A stretch of DNA of 64,000 bases from the NCBI RefSeq assembly GCF_023336895.1, contig NZ_JAMBLT010000001.1, forward strand, positions 1-64,000. The letters are read 5' to 3'. Below, piece after piece: positions 16,574-60,027 of this stretch. Origin of the DNA: Parasutterella secunda. Lineage in GTDB: Bacteria; Pseudomonadota; Gammaproteobacteria; Burkholderiales; Burkholderiaceae_F. The first letter of the stretch is position 1; each line of letters opens with the position of its first letter. Made by a program: the position numbers and the translations under genes. The notes under the pieces were generated by a model, which worked only from the letters and a program-made list of their open reading frames with translations, made no database searches and was not told the DNA's origin.

Positions 16574-16738
16574 AACGACCTCTTGTGAATCAATATTTCA
16601 ACAACACAGATTTTAAATGACGGCTATCATTCGGTGTTAGAACTTTTTTTTGTTTTGAATACTGTGGAAAGAGCGACCCCTATTTTTGCCGTCGAGACTT
16701 TCAAAAGTCTAGGCGACAAGACATTTCGAGGACAGAGT

Positions 16739-19048
16739 ATGTTCGGCGTCATCATGACGTGGATCATGCTCATTTGCGTGATTATCGGAATGATTTTCAT
16801 CGGCCGCGTTATTCAATCAGAAGACCAAAAATCACAACTGTCTCAGTTACACCAAACAACAGAACTGTGGGCTGAATCTTTTTCCATTCGTCTAAATTCC
16901 GATTTAGACCGTCTCGGTCAGTTACACAACGCACTGCCTCAAAATCTAAGCTTCCGAGACAATCTATCCAGATTAGAGCAGCAAACTAGGGAGCTGATGC
17001 AGCAGCGAGCCGAAATTCTCGAAATTAATTACCTCGATGGAAACAATCGCGTTGTTGCTTCTTTTGCTTCACCGCATCCTTTCGGCGACATTACGTTACG
17101 AACCGGGGAGCGCTATCAAAGGCCCAGCACCATGGGCGCCATTCTTCGTTCCAGACGAACCGGATCTTCGTCATTTTCAGAACCCTACTCGTTGCCCATT
17201 GAAGGATCGCCATTTATTGATCTGGTGTCTCCAAGCATCGTAGGGGGTGAGCGCTATCTGCAAATCTCTCGTTTGTCCATTTGGTCACTTTTGCGTCAGG
17301 CAACCCAGAGCCGGCGGGATGCTTCTTTTCGCATTAGCCTGCTCTACAACAGTGAACCGATTGTTGCCGCCAGTACAGACTCGCGCAGACAAACGATCAC
17401 TTACAAAATGCACCTTTCCCCGCTTCCGGCAGGCTTTGAGTTACAAGTTTCAAGTTATGCTCAAGGTCTATTGACCCAGAACACTCTTTTCTGGGTGATC
17501 AGCGCACTGGGAATTTTTTTGGTCGTCGCTCTCTTGGGATTGATCCGCTTCAATTGGAGACAAAACAGCACAGAAACCGCACTACGCGCAGAATCTGCGC
17601 TTAGAAAAACCATCGCTGACAGTCAATTGTCCGGTCTGCAGGTAACCGACAGAAACGGTCGTATTGTTTACACAAACCGCACGTTTACCGATTTACTGGG
17701 TTTGAGCGCCAATGAGCATCTAATCGGGCAGTTACCTCCCTATTCTTACTGGCCTAAAGGCGATGCAGGCTTTCGTTTAATGGAGTTATTTGACACGATT
17801 AAACGCGGGCAAATGACAACAACCAGTTATGAATTTCATCCTCTGAGACCCGATGGTTCCACTTTCAGTGCGTTTATCCACATCTCTCCCATGATTACCG
17901 TTGAAGGTACCCATTTAGGATGGCTGTGGACACTGACCGATATTTCCGAAATTCGTCAGGCGCAGGAAAGAGTCACTGCAGCGCATGAACGATTCACTCG
18001 CGTTCTCGAGTCTATGCAGGATGCTATCAGCGTGGTTGACCCCCAAAGCAACGTGTTGCTTTTTTCCAATACTGTCTACGATTCTCTCTTCGGAGAAACC
18101 AGTCAAGGTCATCTTCAAGCACACATGGAACTCATTAATCAAATGGGTGAAAAGAAAGTTAAAGAGGCTTCGGATATATCTTCCGATATTTACCTCGAAG
18201 ATCTTGACCGCTGGTTTGATTTGCACGAGCGCACCATCACATGGACAGACCGTACGGCTGTTAGGTTGCAGATTTTGTCTGACATCACAGAAAGACGTAA
18301 AAATGAAAACCTGCTTGTTGAACAACAAGCGCGCTCGGAATTGAATTCGCGACTGGTGACAATGGGTGAAATGGCAAGCTCACTTGCTCACGAGCTAAAT
18401 CAACCTCTGACAGCTATCTCTAATTACGCCTTTATTGTTTCGAGCTTAATGAAAAAGGCGGGCGTGCCTGAAGAGCATGAAATGTTTTATTCCATCTCGC
18501 GTATTGAGGCACAAGCCCAAAGAGCCGCGGCGATTATTCAAAGAATTCGTTCATTTACTAAACGAAGTGAACCGAAAATGGAGTCTATTCCTGTCATGAA
18601 TCTGATTAAGGAAGTGATGGAATTGGCCTCTATTCAAGCCAGAAGACACAATGCGAAGGTTCAGTACTACGTTGCCCCTGACATCACCAATGTCTGGTGT
18701 GATGAAATTATGATCGAACAGGTTCTCTTGAATTTGATCAAAAATGGCATTGAAGCCAGTGTTGGGATCGAGGGACAAAAACCGGAAGTCACCCTGACAG
18801 TTTATAGCGGCATTGATCACCACATTATTTTTGAAGTTGCCGATAACGGCGTTGGCATTGATGATGAACATAAAGCTCAACTGTTTGATCCGTTCTTTAC
18901 GACCAAGTCCACGGGGATGGGAATGGGCTTAAACATCTGCCGAACCATCGTTGAATTGCACCATGGTCGCCTAACGATATCGGACAATATCGGAAGAGGA
19001 ACAATTTTTACATTAACGCTTCCATCCGAAAACAAACAAACAGTTTAA
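16739..19048 (+). CDS. dctS: Sensor histidine kinase, DctS-like
   Basis: This 769-residue membrane kinase has a transmembrane helix near the N-terminus, a periplasmic sensing region of about 230 residues, and a second helix near residues 245-270. A PAS domain follows with VTDRNGRIVYTNRTF and a YWPKG segment typical of DctS-type PAS domains, then a second PAS-like region, the H-box LAHELNQPLTAI and an ATPase domain (NGIEA, DNGVGID, GMGMGLNIC). GTG 16634 is possible, but ATG 16739 has GAGGA upstream and removes an unlikely N-terminal tail. The DctS assignment, sensing C4-dicarboxylates, is by resemblance. The response regulator follows 49 bases later. Confidence 0.8.
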   Translation: MFGVIMTWIMLICVIIGMIFIGRVIQSEDQKSQLSQLHQTTELWAESFSIRLNSDLDRLGQLHNALPQNLSFRDNLSRLEQQTRELMQQRAEILEINYLDGNNRVVASFASPHPFGDITLRTGERYQRPSTMGAILRSRRTGSSSFSEPYSLPIEGSPFIDLVSPSIVGGERYLQISRLSIWSLLRQATQSRRDASFRISLLYNSEPIVAASTDSRRQTITYKMHLSPLPAGFELQVSSYAQGLLTQNTLFWVISALGIFLVVALLGLIRFNWRQNSTETALRAESALRKTIADSQLSGLQVTDRNGRIVYTNRTFTDLLGLSANEHLIGQLPPYSYWPKGDAGFRLMELFDTIKRGQMTTTSYEFHPLRPDGSTFSAFIHISPMITVEGTHLGWLWTLTDISEIRQAQERVTAAHERFTRVLESMQDAISVVDPQSNVLLFSNTVYDSLFGETSQGHLQAHMELINQMGEKKVKEASDISSDIYLEDLDRWFDLHERTITWTDRTAVRLQILSDITERRKNENLLVEQQARSELNSRLVTMGEMASSLAHELNQPLTAISNYAFIVSSLMKKAGVPEEHEMFYSISRIEAQAQRAAAIIQRIRSFTKRSEPKMESIPVMNLIKEVMELASIQARRHNAKVQYYVAPDITNVWCDEIMIEQVLLNLIKNGIEASVGIEGQKPEVTLTVYSGIDHHIIFEVADNGVGIDDEHKAQLFDPFFTTKSTGMGMGLNICRTIVELHHGRLTISDNIGRGTIFTLTLPSENKQTV

Positions 19049-19097
19049 AATGCTTTTTCGTTAACAAAACTCACGGCCTATTGCCTACATTGAAATT

Positions 19098-19748
19098 ATG
19101 TCTTTTCCCGCATTCAATTTTGACAATATCCGCAAAGAACCTCTGGGAACCGTCTATCTTGTAGACGACGATGCAGATGTGCGTGATTCACTGCGCAGAT
19201 TATTGGAATCACAGGACTATCGGGTTGAAGCTTATGACAGCGGTGAAGCATTCATCGCCAAGTATGATCCGAACGCCATTGCTGTGCTCTTACTCGATCA
19301 ACGTATGCCCGGAATGCCCGGCACTGAAGTCCAAGATCACCTCATTGCAAGAAAAGCGACTATTCCTATTGTCTTTTTAACTGGACACGGTGACGTTCCG
19401 ATGGCTGTGAGTGCCCTAAAAAAGGGAGCGGCCGATTTCTTGCAAAAGCCGGTAAAGATTGAAATCTTATTACCCTTGATTTCTCGACTTTTGTCTGAGG
19501 CTCGTGAGCAGCGTGTTAAAAGTGAGCGTCAATCTCTCAATGAAGCGATGCTCTCCAAACTCACGCCGCGTGAACAACAGGTGCTTGAACGCATCGTTGC
19601 CGGTCGGCTTAATAAACAAATCGCCGATGACTTGGGTATTTCTATTAAAACAGTTGAAGCCCACCGTGCTTCAATTATGGATAAAACCAATTCGGGAACA
19701 GTCGCCGATTTGATGCGTGTTGTCATGAGTGCCAACAAGCAAATTTAA
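19098..19748 (+). CDS. dctR: FixJ/DctR-type response regulator
   Basis: This 216-residue regulator is the cognate partner of the upstream kinase. It has a receiver domain with YLVDDDADVRDSL, phospho-acceptor Asp in LLLDQRMPG, TGHGDVPM and Lys in FLQKPV, then a LuxR-type helix-turn-helix (LTPREQQVLERIVAG, IADDLGISIKTVEAHRA). This arrangement is standard for FixJ, TtrR and DctR. With the DctS-like partner, control of C4-dicarboxylate uptake genes such as dcuC is plausible, but no target is proven here. A terminator follows. Confidence 0.85.
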   Translation: MSFPAFNFDNIRKEPLGTVYLVDDDADVRDSLRRLLESQDYRVEAYDSGEAFIAKYDPNAIAVLLLDQRMPGMPGTEVQDHLIARKATIPIVFLTGHGDVPMAVSALKKGAADFLQKPVKIEILLPLISRLLSEAREQRVKSERQSLNEAMLSKLTPREQQVLERIVAGRLNKQIADDLGISIKTVEAHRASIMDKTNSGTVADLMRVVMSANKQI

Positions 19749-44974: not shown

Positions 44975-45025
44975 CACAGCAAACCCCTTTACACCCATTG
45001 GCCTATCTTGAGTTTGGGAGATTCT

Positions 45026-47074
45026 ATGTCTAAGCATGAATCATTGGATGTTCGTGTCGCTGTCGAACCGGATAATCCCGCATTGATTCGTAATGAGTCT
45101 TTATGTGTTAATTGTTCCATGTGCCGCCAAGTATGCGAAGACTATATCGGCGTACACGGTCATTACGATTTAACAAAAACCGGCGATAAAGCCATCTGTA
45201 TTCACTGTGGCCAGTGCATCAACGTCTGTCCTACCGGAAGCCTTTTAGGTCGCAATGAGTATTCTCAAGTACAAGAAGCTATTGATGATCCGGAACGTAT
45301 TGTCGTCATTTCCACTTCTCCTGCTGTCCGCGTGGCTCTTGCAGAAGCTTTCGGCCTTGAGGCAGGTCGCTTTGAAGAAGAAAAAATGGTGGGCCTTTTG
45401 CGTCAACTCGGCGCTGACTATGTGCTTGATACCAACTTTGCTGCAGACCTTACGATCATGGAAGAGGCTTCTGAATTAGTGCAAAGAATCACGAAAAAGA
45501 GTGCTCCCCTGCCGCAATTTACGAGTTGTTGTCCCGCCTGGGTTAAATATGCCGAAACGTTCCACCCGGAAATAATTGCCAATATTTCCAGCGCAAAAAG
45601 TCCGATTGGTATGCAAGGGGCCACGGTTAAAACCTATTTTGCTCGTGAAAATGCACTGGATGCCAAAAAAATCGTCCACGTTGCTTTAGCTCCCTGTACT
45701 GCTAAAAAGTTTGAAGTCCGACGCGAGGAGTTCAATAGCAGCGGCCGCTATCACGCAGATGAATCCATCCGTGACACAGATTTCGTTATTACAACAACAG
45801 AGTTAGCCGAGTGGGCTCAATCTAAGGGAATTGGTTTTGATGACATCACTCCTTCCCACTATGACCGCTTAATGGGAGAAGGGTCCGGTGCAAGCGTTAT
45901 TTTTGGAAACACCGGTGGAGTCATGGAAGCGGCCTTACGTACTGCACACTTTCTGGTGACGGGCCACGCGGCCCCTGCTGAATTCTATGATCTTCAACCA
46001 GTCAGAGGTTTGACAGACGTAAAAGAAGCCTGTGTTCGGATTGCTGACTTGACTCTAAACGTAGCCGTAGTTTACGGTACCGCCAACGCCGGAAAACTTA
46101 TCGATCAAATCAATAAGGGTGAGAAAACTTATCACTTCATCGAAGTGATGACCTGCCCAGGAGGTTGTATCTCAGGCGGCGGTCAGCCCAAATTAAATTG
46201 GGGACAAGAAGACCTCACTCGTCAGCAGCGAATCGATGCTTTGTACGCTCGTGACAGCAGCTTTGACAGGGCACACCGTACAAGCTACGAAAACGAAGAA
46301 ATCAAGCGTATCTACGAACAATTTTATGGTCATCCATTATCGGAATTGGCCGAAAAACTTTTACACACGCACTACACGGACCGTAGTGCATCTTTAGGAG
46401 AAAAGAAAATGAAATACCGTTGCAAAGTATGCGGTTATATCCACGAATGCGAAGGTGAATTGCCCGCTGATTACATTTGCCCTATCTGCAAGAAGGGAAT
46501 TGAATTTTTCGAACCTGTCGAAGAATCCAAAAAAGCCTGCGGACAATTGGCTGGCACCAAGACTGAAAAGAATTTGATGACCGCTTTTGCTGGTGAGTCA
46601 CAAGCTCGTAACAAGTACACCTACTTTGCTGAAGTAGCTAAACGCGAAGGCTATGAACAAATCGCCGCTATCTTCTTGCAAACGGCTCGTAATGAACAAG
46701 AACATGCCCGCTTGTGGTGCGATGCCTTGGGTTGGATTCAAGATACGGCCAAGAATCTCGGCGCTGCTGCAGAAGGTGAAAATTACGAATGGACCGATAT
46801 GTACGACGGCTTCGCAAAAGACGCAGAGGAAGAAGGCTTTAGCGAATTAGCTGCTAAGTTCCGCGCTGTTGCCGCTATTGAAAAGGCCCATGAAGAACGC
46901 TATCGCAAACTTCTCAAAAACGTTGAGATGAAGCAAGTTTTTGAAAAGGCCGGTCAGGCAATGTGGGAATGCCGCATTTGCGGTCACCTTGTAATGGGCG
47001 TTAAGGCTCCTGAGGCTTGCCCGGTTTGCGGCTATGCTCAAAGCTATTTTGAAGTACGAGCCGAAAACTACTAA
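45026..47074 (+). CDS. [FeFe]-hydrogenase / rubredoxin / rubrerythrin fusion protein
   Basis: This 682-residue protein has two ferredoxin 4Fe-4S motifs (Cys27-30-33-37, Cys58-61-64-68). An [FeFe]-hydrogenase H-domain follows with TSCCPAW (166-172), APCTAKK (222-228) and [14 protein letters not shown] (375-388), then a small-subunit-like tail to about residue 455. From Met462 come a rubredoxin-like knuckle pair (CKVCGY, CPICKKG), a ferritin-like di-iron rubrerythrin ([29 protein letters not shown]) and a final rubredoxin (CRICGH, CPVCGY). ATG 45026 has GGGAG upstream; the TTG six codons earlier is rejected. The likely reaction is H2-linked reduction of peroxide. No hydEFG maturases lie in the window. 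Confidence 0.93.
46396..46411 (+). promoter_or_regulatory. Internal ribosome binding site and ATG at the hydrogenase/rubrerythrin junction
   Basis: AGGAG (46396-46400) lies exactly 8 bases before ATG 46409-46411, in frame with the fusion at codon 462, just before the first rubredoxin ([10 protein letters not shown]). Initiation here would yield a free 221-residue rubrerythrin. Confidence 0.6.
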
Positions 47075-52864: not shown

Positions 52865-53512
52865 ATGCAACACGATCCTCGTTTTCCTCGTTTACACATT
52901 GTTGATCACCCTCTGATTCAGCACAAACTCAGCATAATGCGCGATAAGAACACCTGCACAAAGGATTTCCGTGCCTTACTTCGAGAAATCGCTTTACTAA
53001 TGGGTTACGAAGTCACGAGGAATTTGCCGCTTACTACCCACAGCATTGAAACGCCCCTTTGCCGTTTTGATGCGCCATTCCTAGCCGACAAGAAGCCGGT
53101 TATTGTTCCTATCTTGCGTGCCGGCCTAGGTATGGCCGATGGATTTTTGGAGCTAATGCCTTCTGCACGCGTCGGTCACATCGGCATGTACCGAGACGAA
53201 AATAAGCGTCCGGTCGAGTACCTGGTTAAATTGCCGGATTTAGAAGGTCGCACATTTTTCTTAGTGGATCCGATGTTAGCAACGGGATATTCTGCTGCAC
53301 ACGGTGTTGAAGTACTGAAAAAGCGCGGCGTTAAAGGCGAAAACATTATTTTCATGTCTTTGCTTTGCGCACCTGAAGGCGTAGAAACCTTCCAAAAGCT
53401 TCATCCCGATGTCGAGGTCTATACCGCAAGTTTGGATGATCACTTAAATGAAAAGGCATACATTGTTCCTGGTTTGGGTGATGCCGGTGACCGCTTGTAC
53501 GGCACTCTCTAA
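52865..53512 (+). CDS. upp: Uracil phosphoribosyltransferase
   Basis: Upp salvages uracil to UMP with PRPP. The 215-residue protein has the PRPP loop [23 protein letters not shown] and the uracil-binding C-terminus [19 protein letters not shown] 52865 has AAGGAG upstream. It stands alone; the NCS2 permease at 2.3 kb is the only related carrier in the window. Confidence 0.96.
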
Positions 53513-53535
53513 AAAATTATCCAAACAATAAAATT

Positions 53536-53602
53536 AAGGGTTAACCCTAGTATTTTTGGTTAAACTTACAGTTTAGAAATACTTTTATAAGGGTTAACCC
53601 TA
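53536..53602. promoter_or_regulatory. Symmetric array of three dyads upstream of the fumarate reductase anchor gene
   Basis: Two copies of the perfect palindrome GGGTTAACCC (53538-53547 and 53591-53600), both flanked by AA before and TA then ATTTTTG after, have centres 53 bases apart, about five helical turns. A third perfect dyad, TAAACT-TAC-AGTTTA (53561-53575), is centred within one base of the midpoint. The layout suggests a cooperative regulator site. Confidence 0.6.
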
Positions 53603-53697
53603 TATTTTTGATTATAAAAACTTAAATTAATCTGAAAAAAGCTAAAAACATCTGATCTAACTCAAACCTTTTTACTGAAAAAGAGAGGATGATACGC

Positions 53698-53769
53698 ATG
53701 TCGGAACGCAGAAGCGTTCTGTCTGTTTGTGTTTTTAAACGTCATCAAAGCGCTTGGACCGCGTTTTGA
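53698..53769 (+). CDS. Possible leader peptide/small ORF (23 aa)
   Basis: ATG 53698 has AGAGGA about 9 bases upstream. The product MSERRSVLSVCVFKRHQSA plus WTAF ends at TGA 53767-53769, 40 bases before the cytochrome b ATG. The hairpin GAACGC-AGAA-GCGTTC lies inside it. It could be a regulatory leader or chance; no family is recognised. Confidence 0.3.
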   Translation: MSERRSVLSVCVFKRHQSAWTAF

Positions 53770-53809: not shown

Positions 53810-54601
53810 ATGTCGATGTATACCTCTGATCAAGAAAAGTATTCCAACACCCCGACGTCTGAAGAAGTCATCGCTGGTGTGGAATTGCGCAATGCCAAGC
53901 GCAAGAGCAGATGGCCGGCTTACTGCGACGTTGCCCAATCCGTTACGGGCTTGTTGCTCGGCTTGTTCCTGTTCTGCCACATGGCTTTCACGAGCTCTAT
54001 TCAATTGGGCAAGGATGTGTTCTGGAACTTGGTCGCTTTCTCCGGCGGCTATCCGATCGATGGCGAAGAACATGCTTGGATGCACGTCGTTTTGATCGGC
54101 GCCATCACCCTCTTGGTGATCATCCACGCTTTGATGGCTTTGCGTCGCTTCCCGACGAGCTATCGTATGTTCCATAACATCAAGAGCCAATACCAATTCA
54201 TCGCTCACCGCGACACCACGCTTTGGATCGTTCAAATCGTGACCGCTGTGATCTTGACCGGTATGGTCTTCCCGCACGTCACCCCGATGTTGCTCGACCC
54301 GCACGCCATTGGCCCGAACCTTTCTTCCGTTCACACCTATCACAATGGTTTGCTCTGGACGTTCGTCTTCTTGGTGGCCACTGAATTGCACGGCATGATC
54401 GGTTTGTATCGTCTGTGCGTCAAGTGGGACGTCTTCGCTGGTAACCGTGAAGCCCTCCGTAAGATCATGTACTGCGTGGTCGTTTTGATGATCGCCTGCG
54501 GTTCCATGACGATGTGGACGTACTACAGCAACGGTAAGGCCCTTGTTGAAAGCGGCGAACCGATCGTTAAGTACGAACCGGTTAACAACTGGTGGAAGTA
54601 A
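53810..54601 (+). CDS. frdC: Fumarate reductase cytochrome b subunit (FrdC-like)
   Basis: This 263-residue di-haem membrane anchor resembles the epsilonproteobacterial (Wolinella) fumarate reductase. It has about five helices and conserved histidines in FLFCHMAF (His57), AWMHVVL (His92), IIHALMALRR (His106), FPHVTP (His156) and TELHGMIGLYR (His194). It would link menaquinol oxidation to fumarate reduction. Codon choice is strongly biased, a sign of high expression. It is followed at once by a terminator, and no frdA or frdB lies beside it, which is unusual. Confidence 0.85.
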   Translation: MSMYTSDQEKYSNTPTSEEVIAGVELRNAKRKSRWPAYCDVAQSVTGLLLGLFLFCHMAFTSSIQLGKDVFWNLVAFSGGYPIDGEEHAWMHVVLIGAITLLVIIHALMALRRFPTSYRMFHNIKSQYQFIAHRDTTLWIVQIVTAVILTGMVFPHVTPMLLDPHAIGPNLSSVHTYHNGLLWTFVFLVATELHGMIGLYRLCVKWDVFAGNREALRKIMYCVVVLMIACGSMTMWTYYSNGKALVESGEPIVKYEPVNNWWK

Positions 54602-55065: not shown

Positions 55066-55731
55066 CTAAATAGTGACGCCGCGATCACGAGCCCACAGTG
55101 CTGCCTGTGTACGTGAAGCAAAGCCCATTTTCTTCAGAATGTGCTTCACGTGCACTTTGACGGTACCTAACTGAATCGAAAGATACTCCCCTGTTTGCTG
55201 GTTACTCATTCCAATTGACAAGCACTTCAATACATCCTTTTCCCGACTAGTCAAACAATTGAGATCCCGATCAACTTCTCCAGTATCATCTCTGAACGCA
55301 CGAGTCAAGGCCGCCATCAAACGATTGCTGACAACGACCTTTCCATTACAAACCCTTTTGATTTGAGACAAAAGCTCCTGAACCTCAATCAATTTGGATA
55401 AATACCCTTCGGCTTGAAGCTGGACCGTAGCCATCAATTCTTCACTGTCATCACGATCGGTCATCATAATGACTCGGGCTGGATTATGAAGAGCTTTTGC
55501 ATAACGAAGCAATTCAATAGCAGCTCCTTTTTTCATATGCATATCAACGATGACTAAATCGGGCTGAAGTCTGTCGATATAAAACATCCCCAACTGCTTG
55601 TCACCCGTTTCAGCGACATTTCCAAAGTCATCATCCGCATGTAAAAGACGCGCTAGAGCTTCCCGAAATAGCGGGGAGCCATCCACAATCACTACGCAGC
55701 TTTTTCTGCTATTTTCCCCTGCTTGCGTCAT
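55066..55731 (-). CDS. NarL/LuxR-type response regulator with altered acidic pocket
   Basis: This 221-residue protein has a receiver domain (phospho-acceptor Asp63 in LVIVDMHM, Lys in YLSKLIEV) and a LuxR helix-turn-helix (CLTSREKDVLKCLSIG, YLSIQLGTVKVHVKH). The usual acidic pair near the start is VDG (Asp17-Gly18) instead of DD, so magnesium binding and phosphorylation may be weakened. No kinase gene is adjacent. The target is unknown; neighbours suggest anaerobic metabolism, but this is only position. Confidence 0.85.
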   Translation of the reverse strand: MTQAGENSRKSCVVIVDGSPLFREALARLLHADDDFGNVAETGDKQLGMFYIDRLQPDLVIVDMHMKKGAAIELLRYAKALHNPARVIMMTDRDDSEELMATVQLQAEGYLSKLIEVQELLSQIKRVCNGKVVVSNRLMAALTRAFRDDTGEVDRDLNCLTSREKDVLKCLSIGMSNQQTGEYLSIQLGTVKVHVKHILKKMGFASRTQAALWARDRGVTI

Positions 55732-55775: not shown

Positions 55776-57044
55776 CTATTTTTCATCAAAATGAGACACT
55801 GCGGCCCACAAGATGTCTGTACCCTGCATGAAGTCTTCCATCTTCATGGCTTCATGAGGATTATGAGAACCCAGTTGGTTAGCGACAAAAATCATGGCAA
55901 CCGGTATACCGTTGTTACCCAACACAGCCGAGTCGTGACCGGCCCCGGAAGCCAAGCGCATACAAGGAATTCCCTCAGCCTTAGCGCTCGTTTCCAATCT
56001 GTCACTTAATGCAGCATCCACGCCGGAAGGTGCCGTCACCAAAGCGGGATCGTACTCAATCTTGACGCCTCTTTCAGAAGCCACTTCTTCGCCGTATTTT
56101 TGCATCAAGTCGTGGAAGCGCTTAACCGTATCTGCACTTAAACTACGAATATCCACCGAGAAGGTCACTTCTCCGGGAATAACGGAAATGGCTGCACTGG
56201 AGGCCATTTTCAAAACACCCACGGTAAACACCAAGTCTTCACCTTGAATCAGCCACCGATCCCAGGCCCGGTCAACGCGTTGCATCCAATCCGTAAAGGC
56301 CATCAGCGCATCATGTCGATAAGGTTTATCCGTCGCTCCTGAGTGAGCAGCTTCCCCTAAAATGCGAACAGCCTTGTGTCGAATGTTGCCTCGAATACCC
56401 GTCACAATACCGGCACGGGCTTCTTTTTGAGCATCCAGGGTCGGGCCTTGTTCAATATGCAGTTCCACAAACGCCGCAATACGATCAATATCAACCAATG
56501 GTTTTCCACCGGAAACAGCTTCCGTATCAATACCGCAAGATTGCATCGCTTCGGCCAATGTGCAGGAACCGTCGCGAATCTTTAAAGCGAGATCTTTGGC
56601 AGTCAGTTTGCCCAACATACCCAAAGAACCCATATAGGCTTTACCGAAGAAGGAACTCTCTTCACCACGCATCATCAAAACGGTGTAGTCACGAACAGGC
56701 TGGAACCCCGTTTGTCTCATCCACCATGCCACTGTCAGAGCCGCTGTTACACCAGCCAAACCGTCATAGTTTCCGCCTTGCGGAACGCTGTCGACGTGAG
56801 AACCGGCGACAAAAGCCGGCAAGGAACGATCTTTACCCGGCAGAGTCATCCACACGTTACCCGCTCGATCCGGGGTAATTTCCAACTGTAAAGACTGACC
56901 AATCTTCGTTAAATAATCGAGAACTTCAGTTTCTTTGGCTGAAAAAGCCTGACGCGTAACACCTTGGACGTCCGCACTCATAGCACGAATATCGTCAAAG
57001 ATTTTTTTAGCGAATTCCAATCCTTTTTGTTGCAACTCTGACAT
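55776..57044 (-). CDS. M20-family hydantoinase/carbamoylase-type amidohydrolase
   Basis: This 422-residue zinc hydrolase belongs to the N-carbamoyl-L-amino acid hydrolase/allantoate amidohydrolase group. It has GSHVDSVPQGGNYDGLAGV (metal site), GEESSFFGKAYMGS in place of the usual EEGSRF motif, LHIEQGP and the C-terminal SGAGHDSAVLG. The substrate could be a carbamoyl amino acid, an N-acyl amino acid or allantoate. No hydantoinase gene is nearby. It is divergent from dcuC across a 309-bp gap. Confidence 0.87.
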   Translation of the reverse strand: MSELQQKGLEFAKKIFDDIRAMSADVQGVTRQAFSAKETEVLDYLTKIGQSLQLEITPDRAGNVWMTLPGKDRSLPAFVAGSHVDSVPQGGNYDGLAGVTAALTVAWWMRQTGFQPVRDYTVLMMRGEESSFFGKAYMGSLGMLGKLTAKDLALKIRDGSCTLAEAMQSCGIDTEAVSGGKPLVDIDRIAAFVELHIEQGPTLDAQKEARAGIVTGIRGNIRHKAVRILGEAAHSGATDKPYRHDALMAFTDWMQRVDRAWDRWLIQGEDLVFTVGVLKMASSAAISVIPGEVTFSVDIRSLSADTVKRFHDLMQKYGEEVASERGVKIEYDPALVTAPSGVDAALSDRLETSAKAEGIPCMRLASGAGHDSAVLGNNGIPVAMIFVANQLGSHNPHEAMKMEDFMQGTDILWAAVSHFDEK

Positions 57045-57238: not shown

Positions 57239-57331
57239 ACAGGGATTTCCCTGTGGGCAGAATCGCGAAAGTGTAGGATACTTAACGCAGTGAGAAAACC
57301 GCCGTTAAGAGCGGCAATTTCTCGTGTTTTT
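57239..57331 (+). promoter_or_regulatory. Structured leader of dcuC with terminator-like hairpin
   Basis: The 309-bp gap upstream of dcuC holds two hairpins. ACAGGGA (57239-57245) pairs with TCCCTGT (57248-57254). GAGAAA-A-CCGC (57292-57302) pairs with GCGG-CAA-TTTCTC (57311-57323), followed by GTGTTTTT. The phrase TTACAGGGA recurs just before the dcuC start as its ribosome site. This looks like an attenuator. Confidence 0.45.
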
Positions 57332-57353
57332 AACCTTTTACAGGGAATTTCTC

Positions 57354-58622
57354 ATGTCGTTGCTTGAATGGTTGGCAATTGCCGTTACGATTTTGACGGT
57401 GTATGCCTTGATCAAACGATTGGAAACGCGTCTCGTGCTCTTTACGGCCGGTTTCGTGCTCTGCTTGGTATCCATGGATCCGTTGAGTGCGTTGAATTCG
57501 TTTGCTAAGTCCATGACCAATAACTCCTTGGTGATGGCAATCTGTTCGTCAATGGGTTTTGCATTCATTGCAAATTACACCCAATGTGACCGCAGTCTCG
57601 TTCACTATTTGGCCGCTCCGATCCGCGGTTTGGGCGTCTTCTTGATCCCGATCTGCACGGCTGTGACCTTCTTCATTAACATCGCTATTCCGTCTGCAGC
57701 CGGTTGTGCTGCTGCCGTGGGTTCTACGTTGATCCCTGTGATGTTGCGTGCCGGTATCAAACCCGCCGCTGCCGCTGCTGCAGTGATGGGTGGTACGATC
57801 GGTTCTTATCTCTCTCCGGGTACGTCCCACAACCCGTTCGTTGCTGAAATGGCTGGCATCGACGTGATGGATTTCATCGCCTTCCACGCTATGTGGTCCA
57901 TTCTTTGCGGTGTGATCTTAGTTGTTGGTTTGCTCGTTGTCTGCATGTTCTTGGGCGACCACAAGGGTGAAAAGGTTGACGTTGAAGCTCAAAAAAACGA
58001 CAACTTCAAGCCTAATCCCATTAAGGCTATCATGCCGCTCGTTCCGATCACGATCCTCGTTGTCGGTAACGTTTGGTTGCCTGTGATCAAGATGGGTGTG
58101 GCCCAAGCCATGGTCTTGGGTGCTGTTATCACCTTATTGGTTGGTTTTGCCTTTGACCGCACGAACCCGCAAGAATTCTCCAAGCAATTCTTCAATGGTA
58201 TGGGTAAGGGTTACGCTGACGTGATGGGTATCATCATCGCCGCTGGTGTGTTCGCAGCTGGCTTGCGTGCTACCGGTTTGATCGATACGTTCGTTGACGT
58301 CTTGAAGCACTCCAATGACATCGCTCGTTGGGGCGGTTCCCTCGGTCCGTGGATCATGGGTACCATCACCGGTTCTGGCGACGCTGCTACCATGGCCTTT
58401 AACGAAGCTGTGACGCCGCACGCTCCTGAATTCGGAATGGAAATTAAAGCTTTGGGTGCCTTGGCCTTCTTGACCGGTGCATTGGGTCGTACGATGAGCC
58501 CGATCGCTGGCGCTATGGTTGTTGTGGCCGGTATCGCTATGGCTAACCCGATGGACGTTGCAAAGCGTACAGCTCTGCCTTGCACGGTCGCTGTGTTCGT
58601 TTTGGCATTGTTCATGGTCTAG
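57354..58622 (+). CDS. dcuC: Anaerobic C4-dicarboxylate transporter DcuC
   Basis: This 422-residue inner-membrane carrier has about twelve helices and belongs to the DcuC family, which exports succinate or exchanges C4-dicarboxylates during anaerobic growth. Notable segments are FINIAIPSAAGCAAAVGSTL, GGTIGSYLSPGTSHNP and GSGDAATMAFNEAVTPHAP. ATG 57354 has CAGGGA before it. Codon bias is strong, as for the cytochrome b gene, pointing to high expression. It works naturally with fumarate reductase (succinate export) and may be a target of the DctSR-like system. A strong terminator follows. Confidence 0.88.
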   Translation: MSLLEWLAIAVTILTVYALIKRLETRLVLFTAGFVLCLVSMDPLSALNSFAKSMTNNSLVMAICSSMGFAFIANYTQCDRSLVHYLAAPIRGLGVFLIPICTAVTFFINIAIPSAAGCAAAVGSTLIPVMLRAGIKPAAAAAAVMGGTIGSYLSPGTSHNPFVAEMAGIDVMDFIAFHAMWSILCGVILVVGLLVVCMFLGDHKGEKVDVEAQKNDNFKPNPIKAIMPLVPITILVVGNVWLPVIKMGVAQAMVLGAVITLLVGFAFDRTNPQEFSKQFFNGMGKGYADVMGIIIAAGVFAAGLRATGLIDTFVDVLKHSNDIARWGGSLGPWIMGTITGSGDAATMAFNEAVTPHAPEFGMEIKALGALAFLTGALGRTMSPIAGAMVVVAGIAMANPMDVAKRTALPCTVAVFVLALFMV

Positions 58623-58752: not shown

Positions 58753-60027
58753 ATGACTCAATGTGCTTATCACGATCAACTTATCAGTATCCGCCGTGAA
58801 CTCCACCAATTTCCCGAAGAAGGTTGGACGGAATTCTGTACAACGGCTTTTATTGTCCAACACTTACGCGAATTAGGCTATGAAGTGTTGATGGGAGAGA
58901 AAGTCATCTCTCGTAAGGATTGCTTAGGACGTGATCCTAAACTTGTTGCTCAGGCCATTGAAACAGCGAAAGCTCGCGGCGTAAGCCAAGAATTGCTCGA
59001 TGAAATGCAGGAATTGACAGGCTGCGTTGCCGTATTGGATACGGGGCGTCCCGGTCCGACAGTTGCCTTACGCTTTGATATCGACTGCAATAATGTCACA
59101 GAAAATCCCTCTGACGAACATCGCGCTAGCAAGGAAGGCTGGGCCTCTAAGCGTCCTGGATTAATGCACGCTTGCGGTCATGACTCTCACATCTCCACTG
59201 GCTTGGCTATTGCTCGTTGGGCCATGGAACATAAGGACCAGTTAAACGGAAAGCTTAAAATCGTGTTCCAACCGGCAGAAGAAGGCGTACGCGGGGCCGC
59301 CGCCGTTGCCGCTAGCGGCATTGTGGACGATTGCGACTACTTCCTCTCTAGCCACATCGCCATGATGGCTAAGTCTGGTGAAATCATTACAAGCCCTGTC
59401 GGATTCCTCTGCACAACCAAATACGACATCTCCTTTAAGGGCCGTCCTGCACACGCCGGTATTGAACCGAATGCCGGACGAAATGCACTGGCCGCTGCAT
59501 GCCACTGTGTCACACAACTTCTCGGCATTCCGCGTCACGGCGCCGGCATGACACGTGTGAATGTTGGCAAGATTACCGCCGGTGAAGGCCGCAACGTTAT
59601 TCCTGTTAACGCAAAACTTGTCATGGAAGTTCGTGGTGAAACCGGTGAAATTAACCAATTTATGGCAAGCGAAACCGAAAACATTGTTGAAGGCGTTGCC
59701 AAGAGCTTCTCTGTTCAGTACCACATCGAAAAAATGGGTGAAGCCGTTGACCTCTTTAATGATAAGGAATTGGTCGATATGCTCGATGACGTCTGCGCTC
59801 ATACTGAAGGCGTTAATAAGGTGCTGCACGAAGTCAATTTCGGAGGCTCCGAAGACGCTACTATTTTGGCTCGCCGCGTGCAGGCTCACGGCGGCAAGGC
59901 TGCTTACTTTGTGTTAGGTTCCGATCGTACGGGCGGCCATCACACTTCGGACTTTGACATTGACGAAAATTCTTTGGACATCGGTGTCAATATCTACTCT
60001 CAAATGCTTACGCGCTTGATGAAGTAG
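58753..60027 (+). CDS. AbgA-like M20 amidohydrolase (aminobenzoyl-glutamate hydrolase family)
   Basis: This 424-residue M20 enzyme closely resembles E. coli AbgA. Shared features are the RRELHQFPEEGWTEF start, the GCVAVLDTGRPGPTVALRFD segment, HACGHDSH metal site, FQPAEEGVRGA, GRNVIPVNA and the C-terminal GSEDAT and GGHHTSDFD. AbgA needs AbgB to cleave p-aminobenzoyl-glutamate, a folate breakdown product. No abgB or abgT is present, so another N-acyl substrate is possible. It has its own terminator and lies downstream of the dcuC terminator. Confidence 0.82.
   Translation: MTQCAYHDQLISIRRELHQFPEEGWTEFCTTAFIVQHLRELGYEVLMGEKVISRKDCLGRDPKLVAQAIETAKARGVSQELLDEMQELTGCVAVLDTGRPGPTVALRFDIDCNNVTENPSDEHRASKEGWASKRPGLMHACGHDSHISTGLAIARWAMEHKDQLNGKLKIVFQPAEEGVRGAAAVAASGIVDDCDYFLSSHIAMMAKSGEIITSPVGFLCTTKYDISFKGRPAHAGIEPNAGRNALAAACHCVTQLLGIPRHGAGMTRVNVGKITAGEGRNVIPVNAKLVMEVRGETGEINQFMASETENIVEGVAKSFSVQYHIEKMGEAVDLFNDKELVDMLDDVCAHTEGVNKVLHEVNFGGSEDATILARRVQAHGGKAAYFVLGSDRTGGHHTSDFDIDENSLDIGVNIYSQMLTRLMK

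Follow-up and report, generated by a model that had tools for sequence, protein, structure and literature searches.

Conserved, helically phased pairs of putative operators upstream of frdC suggest a fumarate-respiration regulon in Sutterellaceae

The closest functional counterpart to the promoters described here is the E. coli DcuS-DcuR regulon (dcuB, frdABCD, dctA), which brings fumarate reductase and C4-dicarboxylate transport together as targets. The candidate set of frdC, dcuB-fumB and dcuC matches that regulon in function (PMC9429925), and here as in E. coli dcuB adjoins a fumarase gene. The sites themselves are different. Judged by comparison with the published motif, the DcuR footprint TTATCTCACATAATTTAT has no GGG/CCC palindrome (PMC10636207), and unlike in the DcuSR system, paired palindromes here stand in phase with an FNR-like site.

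A second point of comparison is NarL/NarX of E. coli. NarL-activated promoters combine FNR with phased upstream sites, narG being activated from −89 and −195, and NarL recognizes TACYYMT-N2-AKRRGTA (for example TACCCCTAAAGGGGTA), of which the GGG-N4-CCC motif found here is the reverse arrangement (PMC4549865). The regulator that we propose below shares the NarL-type output domain and an identical recognition helix with NarL, and differs in having no adjacent NarX, no napA and a degenerate receiver pocket. Palindromes of the form AGGG...CCCT (AGGGCCGATCGGCCCT) are bound by the NarL-family regulators OsdR and DevR (PMC5069765). These hypoxia-linked dormancy regulators (DevR/DosR, OsdR) have universal stress protein genes near them, and a gene of that type carries a site here; their GGG-CCC spacer is 8 rather than 4, they belong to another phylum with other targets, and the homology is at family level only. 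CemR/HP1021 of Campylobacteria is, by its published description, likewise an orphan response regulator of atypical type with control over energy metabolism, and its targets are different (PMC11334517).

We analyzed a 64,000-bp stretch of Parasutterella secunda DNA (hereafter, the window) together with related genomes. Sutterella and related bacteria are common in the gut. We describe a genuine, family-conserved and helically phased pair of putative operators for a predicted fumarate-respiration regulon. No description of a GGG-W4-CCC fumarate switch in Sutterellaceae was found in the literature searched, and a search on the bare motif gave no bacterial regulator paper among the matches listed.

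A conserved palindrome pair in phase with an FNR-like site

Two exact copies of the palindrome GGGTTAACCC lie upstream of frdC (Table 1), whose ATG begins ~210 bp past the end of the pair. The copies have the same flanks, as a preliminary description of this DNA had noted: the 14-mer AAGGGTTAACCCTA is identical at both, and they are exactly 53 bp apart, start to start. No further match was found in the window with one mismatch allowed, and shuffles of the window give an expectation of 1.1 matches at ≤1 mismatch. A genome scan, proposed in the preliminary description as a check against chance frequency, yielded four copies of GGGTTAACCC in 1.98 Mb versus one of a reversed control. The exact 12-mer AGGGTTAACCCT occurs three times in this genome, twice as the frdC pair and once before dcuB-fumB. 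The GGGTTAACCC copy at C1:117392, whose neighbours are a thiamine-type gene and a gene for an unrelated membrane protein, was taken as chance. The mirror layout remarked on earlier adds nothing as a property of the array, because palindromic outer sites produce it by themselves.

Table 1. Features of the frdC region and of other loci discussed, in window coordinates
Feature	Position	Strand	Remarks
Putative operator 1, TAAGGGTTAACCCTAG	53535..53550; core GGGTTAACCC 53538-53547		Centre 53542.5, ~−157.5 from inferred start; 116 bp from FNR-like site; kept in 8/8 genus frdC promoters
Putative operator 2, TAAGGGTTAACCCTAT	53588..53603; core GGGTTAACCC 53591-53600		Centre 53595.5, ~−104.5 from inferred start; 63 bp from FNR-like site; kept in 8/8
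Central dyad TAAACT-TAC-AGTTTA (TAAACTTACAGTTTA)	53561..53575		Tip of spacer hairpin, not an operator
FNR-like site CTGATCTAACTCAA	53652..53665	+	Score 14/16; equal or better in ~2% of shuffles; inferred at ~−41.5
Inferred −10 element GATGAT	53688..53693	+	Within conserved block GATGATACG; inferred by inspection
frdC, fumarate reductase cytochrome b subunit	53810..54601	+	Target gene; NF010072, 187.5 bits vs cut-off 187
upp	52865..53512	+	Upstream neighbour; operators independent of it (also present in Duodenibacillus, which has upp elsewhere)
Orphan NarL-derived response regulator, REC + GerE	55066..55731	−	PF00072, PF00196; candidate regulator
Weaker operator-like site ACAGGGATTTCCCTGT	57240..57255		Contains AGGGATTTCCCT at 57241; before DcuC-family gene
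DcuC-type C4-dicarboxylate transporter	57324..58622	+	NF037994; probable regulon member
DctS/DctR-like two-component system	16634..19748	+	PAS/Cache histidine kinase (16634-19048) and FixJ/StyR-type regulator (19098-19748); near-constant sequence through the family; rejected as first choice

Footprinting among relatives bears out the pair. An ungapped alignment of the frdC loci of eight genomes of the genus (this one and seven others), anchored on the first site, places both sites at exactly 53 bp in all eight promoters. Mean column conservation is 0.96 at site 1 and 0.975 at site 2, versus 0.58 in the spacer. The most distant member of the genus (G002) has weaker sites (GGGTTTACCA and GGTGTTTACCC) and the same 53-bp spacing. 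Across Sutterellaceae, the GGG-W4-CCC motif precedes frdC in the Aphodousia/P. secunda group, Duodenibacillus, Mesosutterella/Dakarella and Sutterella.

We also searched 67 genomes of the family blindly for AGGGWWWWCCC-N{25,55}-GGGWWWWCCC, a pattern that allows 31 spacings. Twelve genomes matched, at one place each, and the reversed pattern, used as control, had no match in the same 67. In 11 of the 12 the pair precedes frdC (seven genomes of the genus, plus G064, G034, G068 and G026), with spacings of 53 (n = 8), 54 (n = 2) and 42 bp (n = 1). The sole pair found away from frdC (G084, C99:349-413) has its sites 54 bp apart and precedes a gene for an Asp-Al_Ex (AspT-type) permease. Four Sutterella frdC promoters with an FNR-like site have no operator by a matrix built from the frdC sites. 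In several Sutterella the position 63 bp ahead of the FNR-like site holds a degenerate palindrome such as ACGTATATACGCGT, which may represent a drift of operator specificity.

The palindrome pair is genuine, and its reading as paired putative operators is strongly supported. Neither of the refuting outcomes named in the preliminary description, a lack of conservation or a chance frequency, came about. The preliminary description had placed the outer sites on one face of the helix, in agreement with the constancy of the 53-bp spacing in the eight species of the genus and with the shift in other genera to other near-integral numbers of turns (42, 43 and 54 bp).

The preliminary description did not recognize FNR in the palindromes, and the FNR-like site downstream is a separate element. 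It resembles the class II consensus TTGAT-N4-ATCAA, degenerate in the window and complete in several relatives; in Duodenibacillus and Sutterella the corresponding position holds the full or near-full consensus. Its position of ~−41.5 is relative to a predicted transcription start near 53700. A scan of the genus placed the FNR-like centre 63 bp from operator 2 and 116 bp from operator 1 in six species. For G006 and G002 the highest FNR score falls elsewhere, and the aligned block keeps its place. The distances from operator to operator and from operator 2 to the FNR-like site are 43 and 63 bp in Duodenibacillus massiliensis (G023) and 42 and 53 bp in Dakarella (G026).

We tallied these distances over 34 named frdC loci, counting only promoters with a clear FNR-like site. 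Measured from the FNR-like site, the 36 operators stand only at 53, 62-63, 95, 106 or 115-117 bp. The count of 36 overstates independence, as many of the loci are related. The best common period of the distances is 10.5-10.75 bp, the range of the helical repeat of DNA, and for nine roughly independent distances the Rayleigh test gives p ~0.0005 at 10.5. Near-integral turns kept across diverged intervening sequence are the pattern of helically phased upstream operators. The natural spacing variants offer a series for studying how FNR cooperates with an upstream factor. A 23-codon open reading frame (MSERRSVLSVCVFKRHQSAWTAF, 53698-53769) begins at the inferred frdC start; judged by eye, relatives do not maintain its frame, and it is probably not a leader peptide.

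Candidate target genes

Scanning promoters with the matrix built from frdC sites only revealed a strong site before dcuB in this genome and in G006, weaker GGG-W4-CCC sites before dcuB in G003, G004, G007 and G008, and one dcuB site in Sutterella wadsworthensis (G017). In this genome the third AGGGTTAACCCT is followed by a dcuB-like gene and then a class I fumarase gene. The weaker site before the DcuC-family gene of the window (Table 1) has counterparts in the genus, where seven dcuC promoters carry GGG-W4-CCC-like sites at ~−115 to −130. As in a DcuSR-type regulon, frdC and dcuB(-fumB) share an operator; because the motif recurs at the dcuB-fumB and dcuC promoters, we regard frdC, dcuB-fumB and dcuC as a putative fumarate-respiration (C4-dicarboxylate) regulon.

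frdA is not beside frdC in the genus genomes checked; frdA, frdB, aspA and dcuA are together elsewhere (C1:102807-108706 in this genome). The frdAB promoter has no convincing site in the genus, its best score being 10.4 (G006) and those of the other members below 6, and on these scores we do not claim frdAB as a target. With only the frdC promoter strong, operator control may extend only to the membrane anchor.

Several other sites were recorded. An operator-like site precedes a universal-stress-type (usp) gene in this genome (C1:205171) and in G006 (C33:30181). The GntR gene beside dcu1 was set aside, its own promoter being without the motif. G005, where neither frdC nor the orphan regulator was found, has two exact copies of AGGGTTAACCCT: one precedes a fumarase gene and may be a terminator hairpin, and the other precedes a gene for a Na/alanine symporter. 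That pre-fumarase copy, TAAGGGTTATCCCTTA between aspA and dcuA in G003, and a site in G006 (C50:10224) lie in hairpins that could be terminators and were not counted as operators.

The candidate regulator and its predicted mode of action

The factor most likely to bind the operators is an orphan NarL-derived response regulator, whose gene adjoins frdC in every one of the eight genus genomes with an identified frdC. In other operator-bearing genera its neighbours are dcu2, fum or the same two amidohydrolase genes. The latter (amidohydrolase-type; 55776-57044 and 58753-60027 in the window) accompany the NarL-like gene in much of the family, whether or not nap genes are present. The best PDB match of the protein is E. 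coli NarL, and its recognition helix (VKVHVKH) is that of E. coli NarL, kept across the orphan clade with one substitution in G026; against the curated NarL profile it scores 171 bits, versus a cut-off of 250. The phosphorylation pocket (DD...D...T/S...K) is incomplete, reading VDGSP rather than VDDHP. Members of the genus have VDGSP, VDASP or VDNSP and keep the phospho-accepting Asp, and the G017 protein, with MSLEA and LLR at the pocket, has lost both phospho-acceptor and lysine. No kinase gene was found beside the regulator gene in the neighbourhood examined, and no napA in the genus genomes. Each genus genome has one HisKA_3 kinase over the cut-off, with a marginal second match in G002. 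This kinase is NarQ-like and in this genome adjoins a response regulator of its own; cross-talk from it to the orphan regulator is possible.

In a tree of 34 NarL-like proteins, a single orphan clade (99/97) holds the regulators from the genus, from Mesosutterella/Dakarella (G009, G026), from Sutterella (G017, G031) and from Duodenibacillus (G023, G034). Outside it are canonical NarL proteins encoded beside a NarX-like kinase and nap genes. The best frdC-promoter scores are 12.7-26.3 in genomes of the orphan clade, G031 (4.3) excepted, and 1.0-12.1 in the NarXL genomes G012, G013, G022, G028 and G032. Strong operators coincide with the orphan clade, a co-occurrence that rests on few independent lineages. 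Several observations speak against this explanation. Canonical NarL has the same helix, so that the helix alone leaves the different site geometry unexplained; G031 has the orphan regulator and an frdC without a strong site; four Sutterella promoters show no operator by the matrix; and G005 carries exact 12-mers with no orphan regulator found. Autoregulation through the operator was rejected, as the promoter scan found no site before the regulator's own gene.

The preliminary description had not recognized the motif as NarL. Allowing ≤2 mismatches, we indeed found no NarL/NarP 7-2-7 arrangement in any frdC promoter of the genus; a 2-mismatch match occurs within the frdC coding region at two loci. 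By inspection, the half site TAACCCT agrees with the heptamer TACYYMT at 6 of 7 positions, with the halves diverging and overlapping rather than face-to-face. One proposal is that a kinase-less NarL-type regulator, having lost its nitrate genes and part of its pocket, was taken over in the gut family Sutterellaceae as a phosphorylation-independent regulator of fumarate respiration that binds GGG-W4-CCC, in the reverse of the NarL geometry, as a phased two-site enhancer with FNR. We put this forward tentatively and lean against it in its full form. The finding as a whole looks like the rewiring of a nitrate regulator once nitrate reductase had been lost.

The same operators and regulon may belong to a different regulator, either the DctS/DctR-like (FixJ/StyR-type) system of the window or a factor outside those screened. 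A C4-dicarboxylate sensor would fit the regulon, the DctR-like proteins of the genus share 87-97% identity, the partner kinase shows a weak Cache-like region, and the co-occurrence screen covered part of the genome's regulators. Both the NarL-like and the DctR-like regulator had been suggested in the preliminary description, and the former is the better candidate: the DctR-like protein explains the distribution of operators less well because a near-identical DNA-binding domain occurs in genera without strong frdC operators. In addition, its genes are unlinked to frd or dcu genes, and their own promoters in the genus are without the motif. We judge a different regulator unlikely, and the strongest of the rivals.

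On balance, and with modest confidence, we favour the reading in which the sites are paired operators of one dimeric factor, phased with FNR and shared by frdC, dcuB-fumB and dcuC, the factor likely being the orphan NarL-derived regulator. The operators, at ~−157 and ~−104, would be 11 and 6 helical turns upstream of the FNR-like site (~−41.5), a spacing that would put two dimers of the factor and FNR on the same face of the DNA. An FNR-dependent promoter with a partner bound upstream has this geometry, as where NarL activates (PMC4549865). In anoxia, FNR would bind next to RNA polymerase at frdC. On a presumed signal, the two operator-bound dimers would aid each other and touch FNR or polymerase, directly or through a bend, raising transcription of frdC; activation is the direction we infer. 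The same factor would control dcuB-fumB and dcuC, such that fumarate uptake and reduction are switched on together, and would do in Sutterellaceae the job of DcuSR in E. coli. The operators would then be the signature of a common switch governing both fumarate reductase and C4-dicarboxylate transport in gut bacteria, one that is testable through a defined operator sequence, a spacing rule and a candidate regulator.

Alternatively, the bound pair may repress, looping or bridging to block frdC until a signal arrives (fumarate, or the lack of a better acceptor). E. coli NarL represses frdA (PMC4549865), and helically phased paired sites are also typical of looping repressors. The sites here are far upstream of the inferred promoter, however, and several Sutterella keep a single distal site in the same phase, which suits activation from upstream better than looping between two sites. 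We consider repression improbable, ranking it just behind a different regulator.

The spacer and other readings of the repeats

The preliminary description had counted a third operator, the central dyad, midway between the outer sites. The dyad is perfect, and its centre (53568) is 1 bp off the exact midpoint of the pair (53569). Its role as an operator did not survive: an equally perfect dyad with 6-bp arms arises in 17% of shuffles of the spacer, and the seven other species of the genus keep 0-4 of the 6 pairs. The dyad caps a larger, species-specific hairpin (AGTATTT...AAATACT, arms 53549-53555 and 53577-53583). The z-score of the spacer hairpin is −1.9 in the window and −2.7 to −6.4 in four relatives, and several species have differing spacer hairpins of their own, among them P. 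secunda (G008), G003, G007 and Dakarella (G026). The spacer hairpin is possibly a weak upp terminator.

These hairpins bear on a further reading, in which the inverted repeat forms one long hairpin in RNA, a upp terminator or mRNA leader, with the palindromes as the halves of its stem. The region does fold better than shuffles (z −4.3), and a spacer hairpin is present in some upp-linked species. Against this, the outer sites are upstream of the inferred frdC start, their spacing tracks helical turns relative to the FNR-like site, and most species carry only one dcuB site. The operators before frdC also persist in Duodenibacillus, where upp is not a neighbour, and on that ground we rejected a upp terminator as the reading of the outer sites. 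No intrinsic terminator (a GC-rich stem followed by a T run, tied to upp) was called at the operators, and an RNA family search of the region gave chance matches only. The RNA reading is largely refuted, and we hold it to be very improbable.

The last reading takes the palindromes for chance occurrences in AT-rich intergenic DNA or for copies of a mobile repeat (MITE/REP). It would draw on the ~1 GGGTTAACCC-like palindrome expected per genome by chance (one for the reversed control) and has a negligible likelihood, being refuted because the sites are conserved, position by position over several genera and at exact spacing, with zero control matches in the blind search and only four copies in this genome.

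Elsewhere in the window (45008-47074), a single open reading frame joins iron-only hydrogenase large-subunit and small-subunit domains with rubrerythrin and a rubredoxin-like domain (Pfam).
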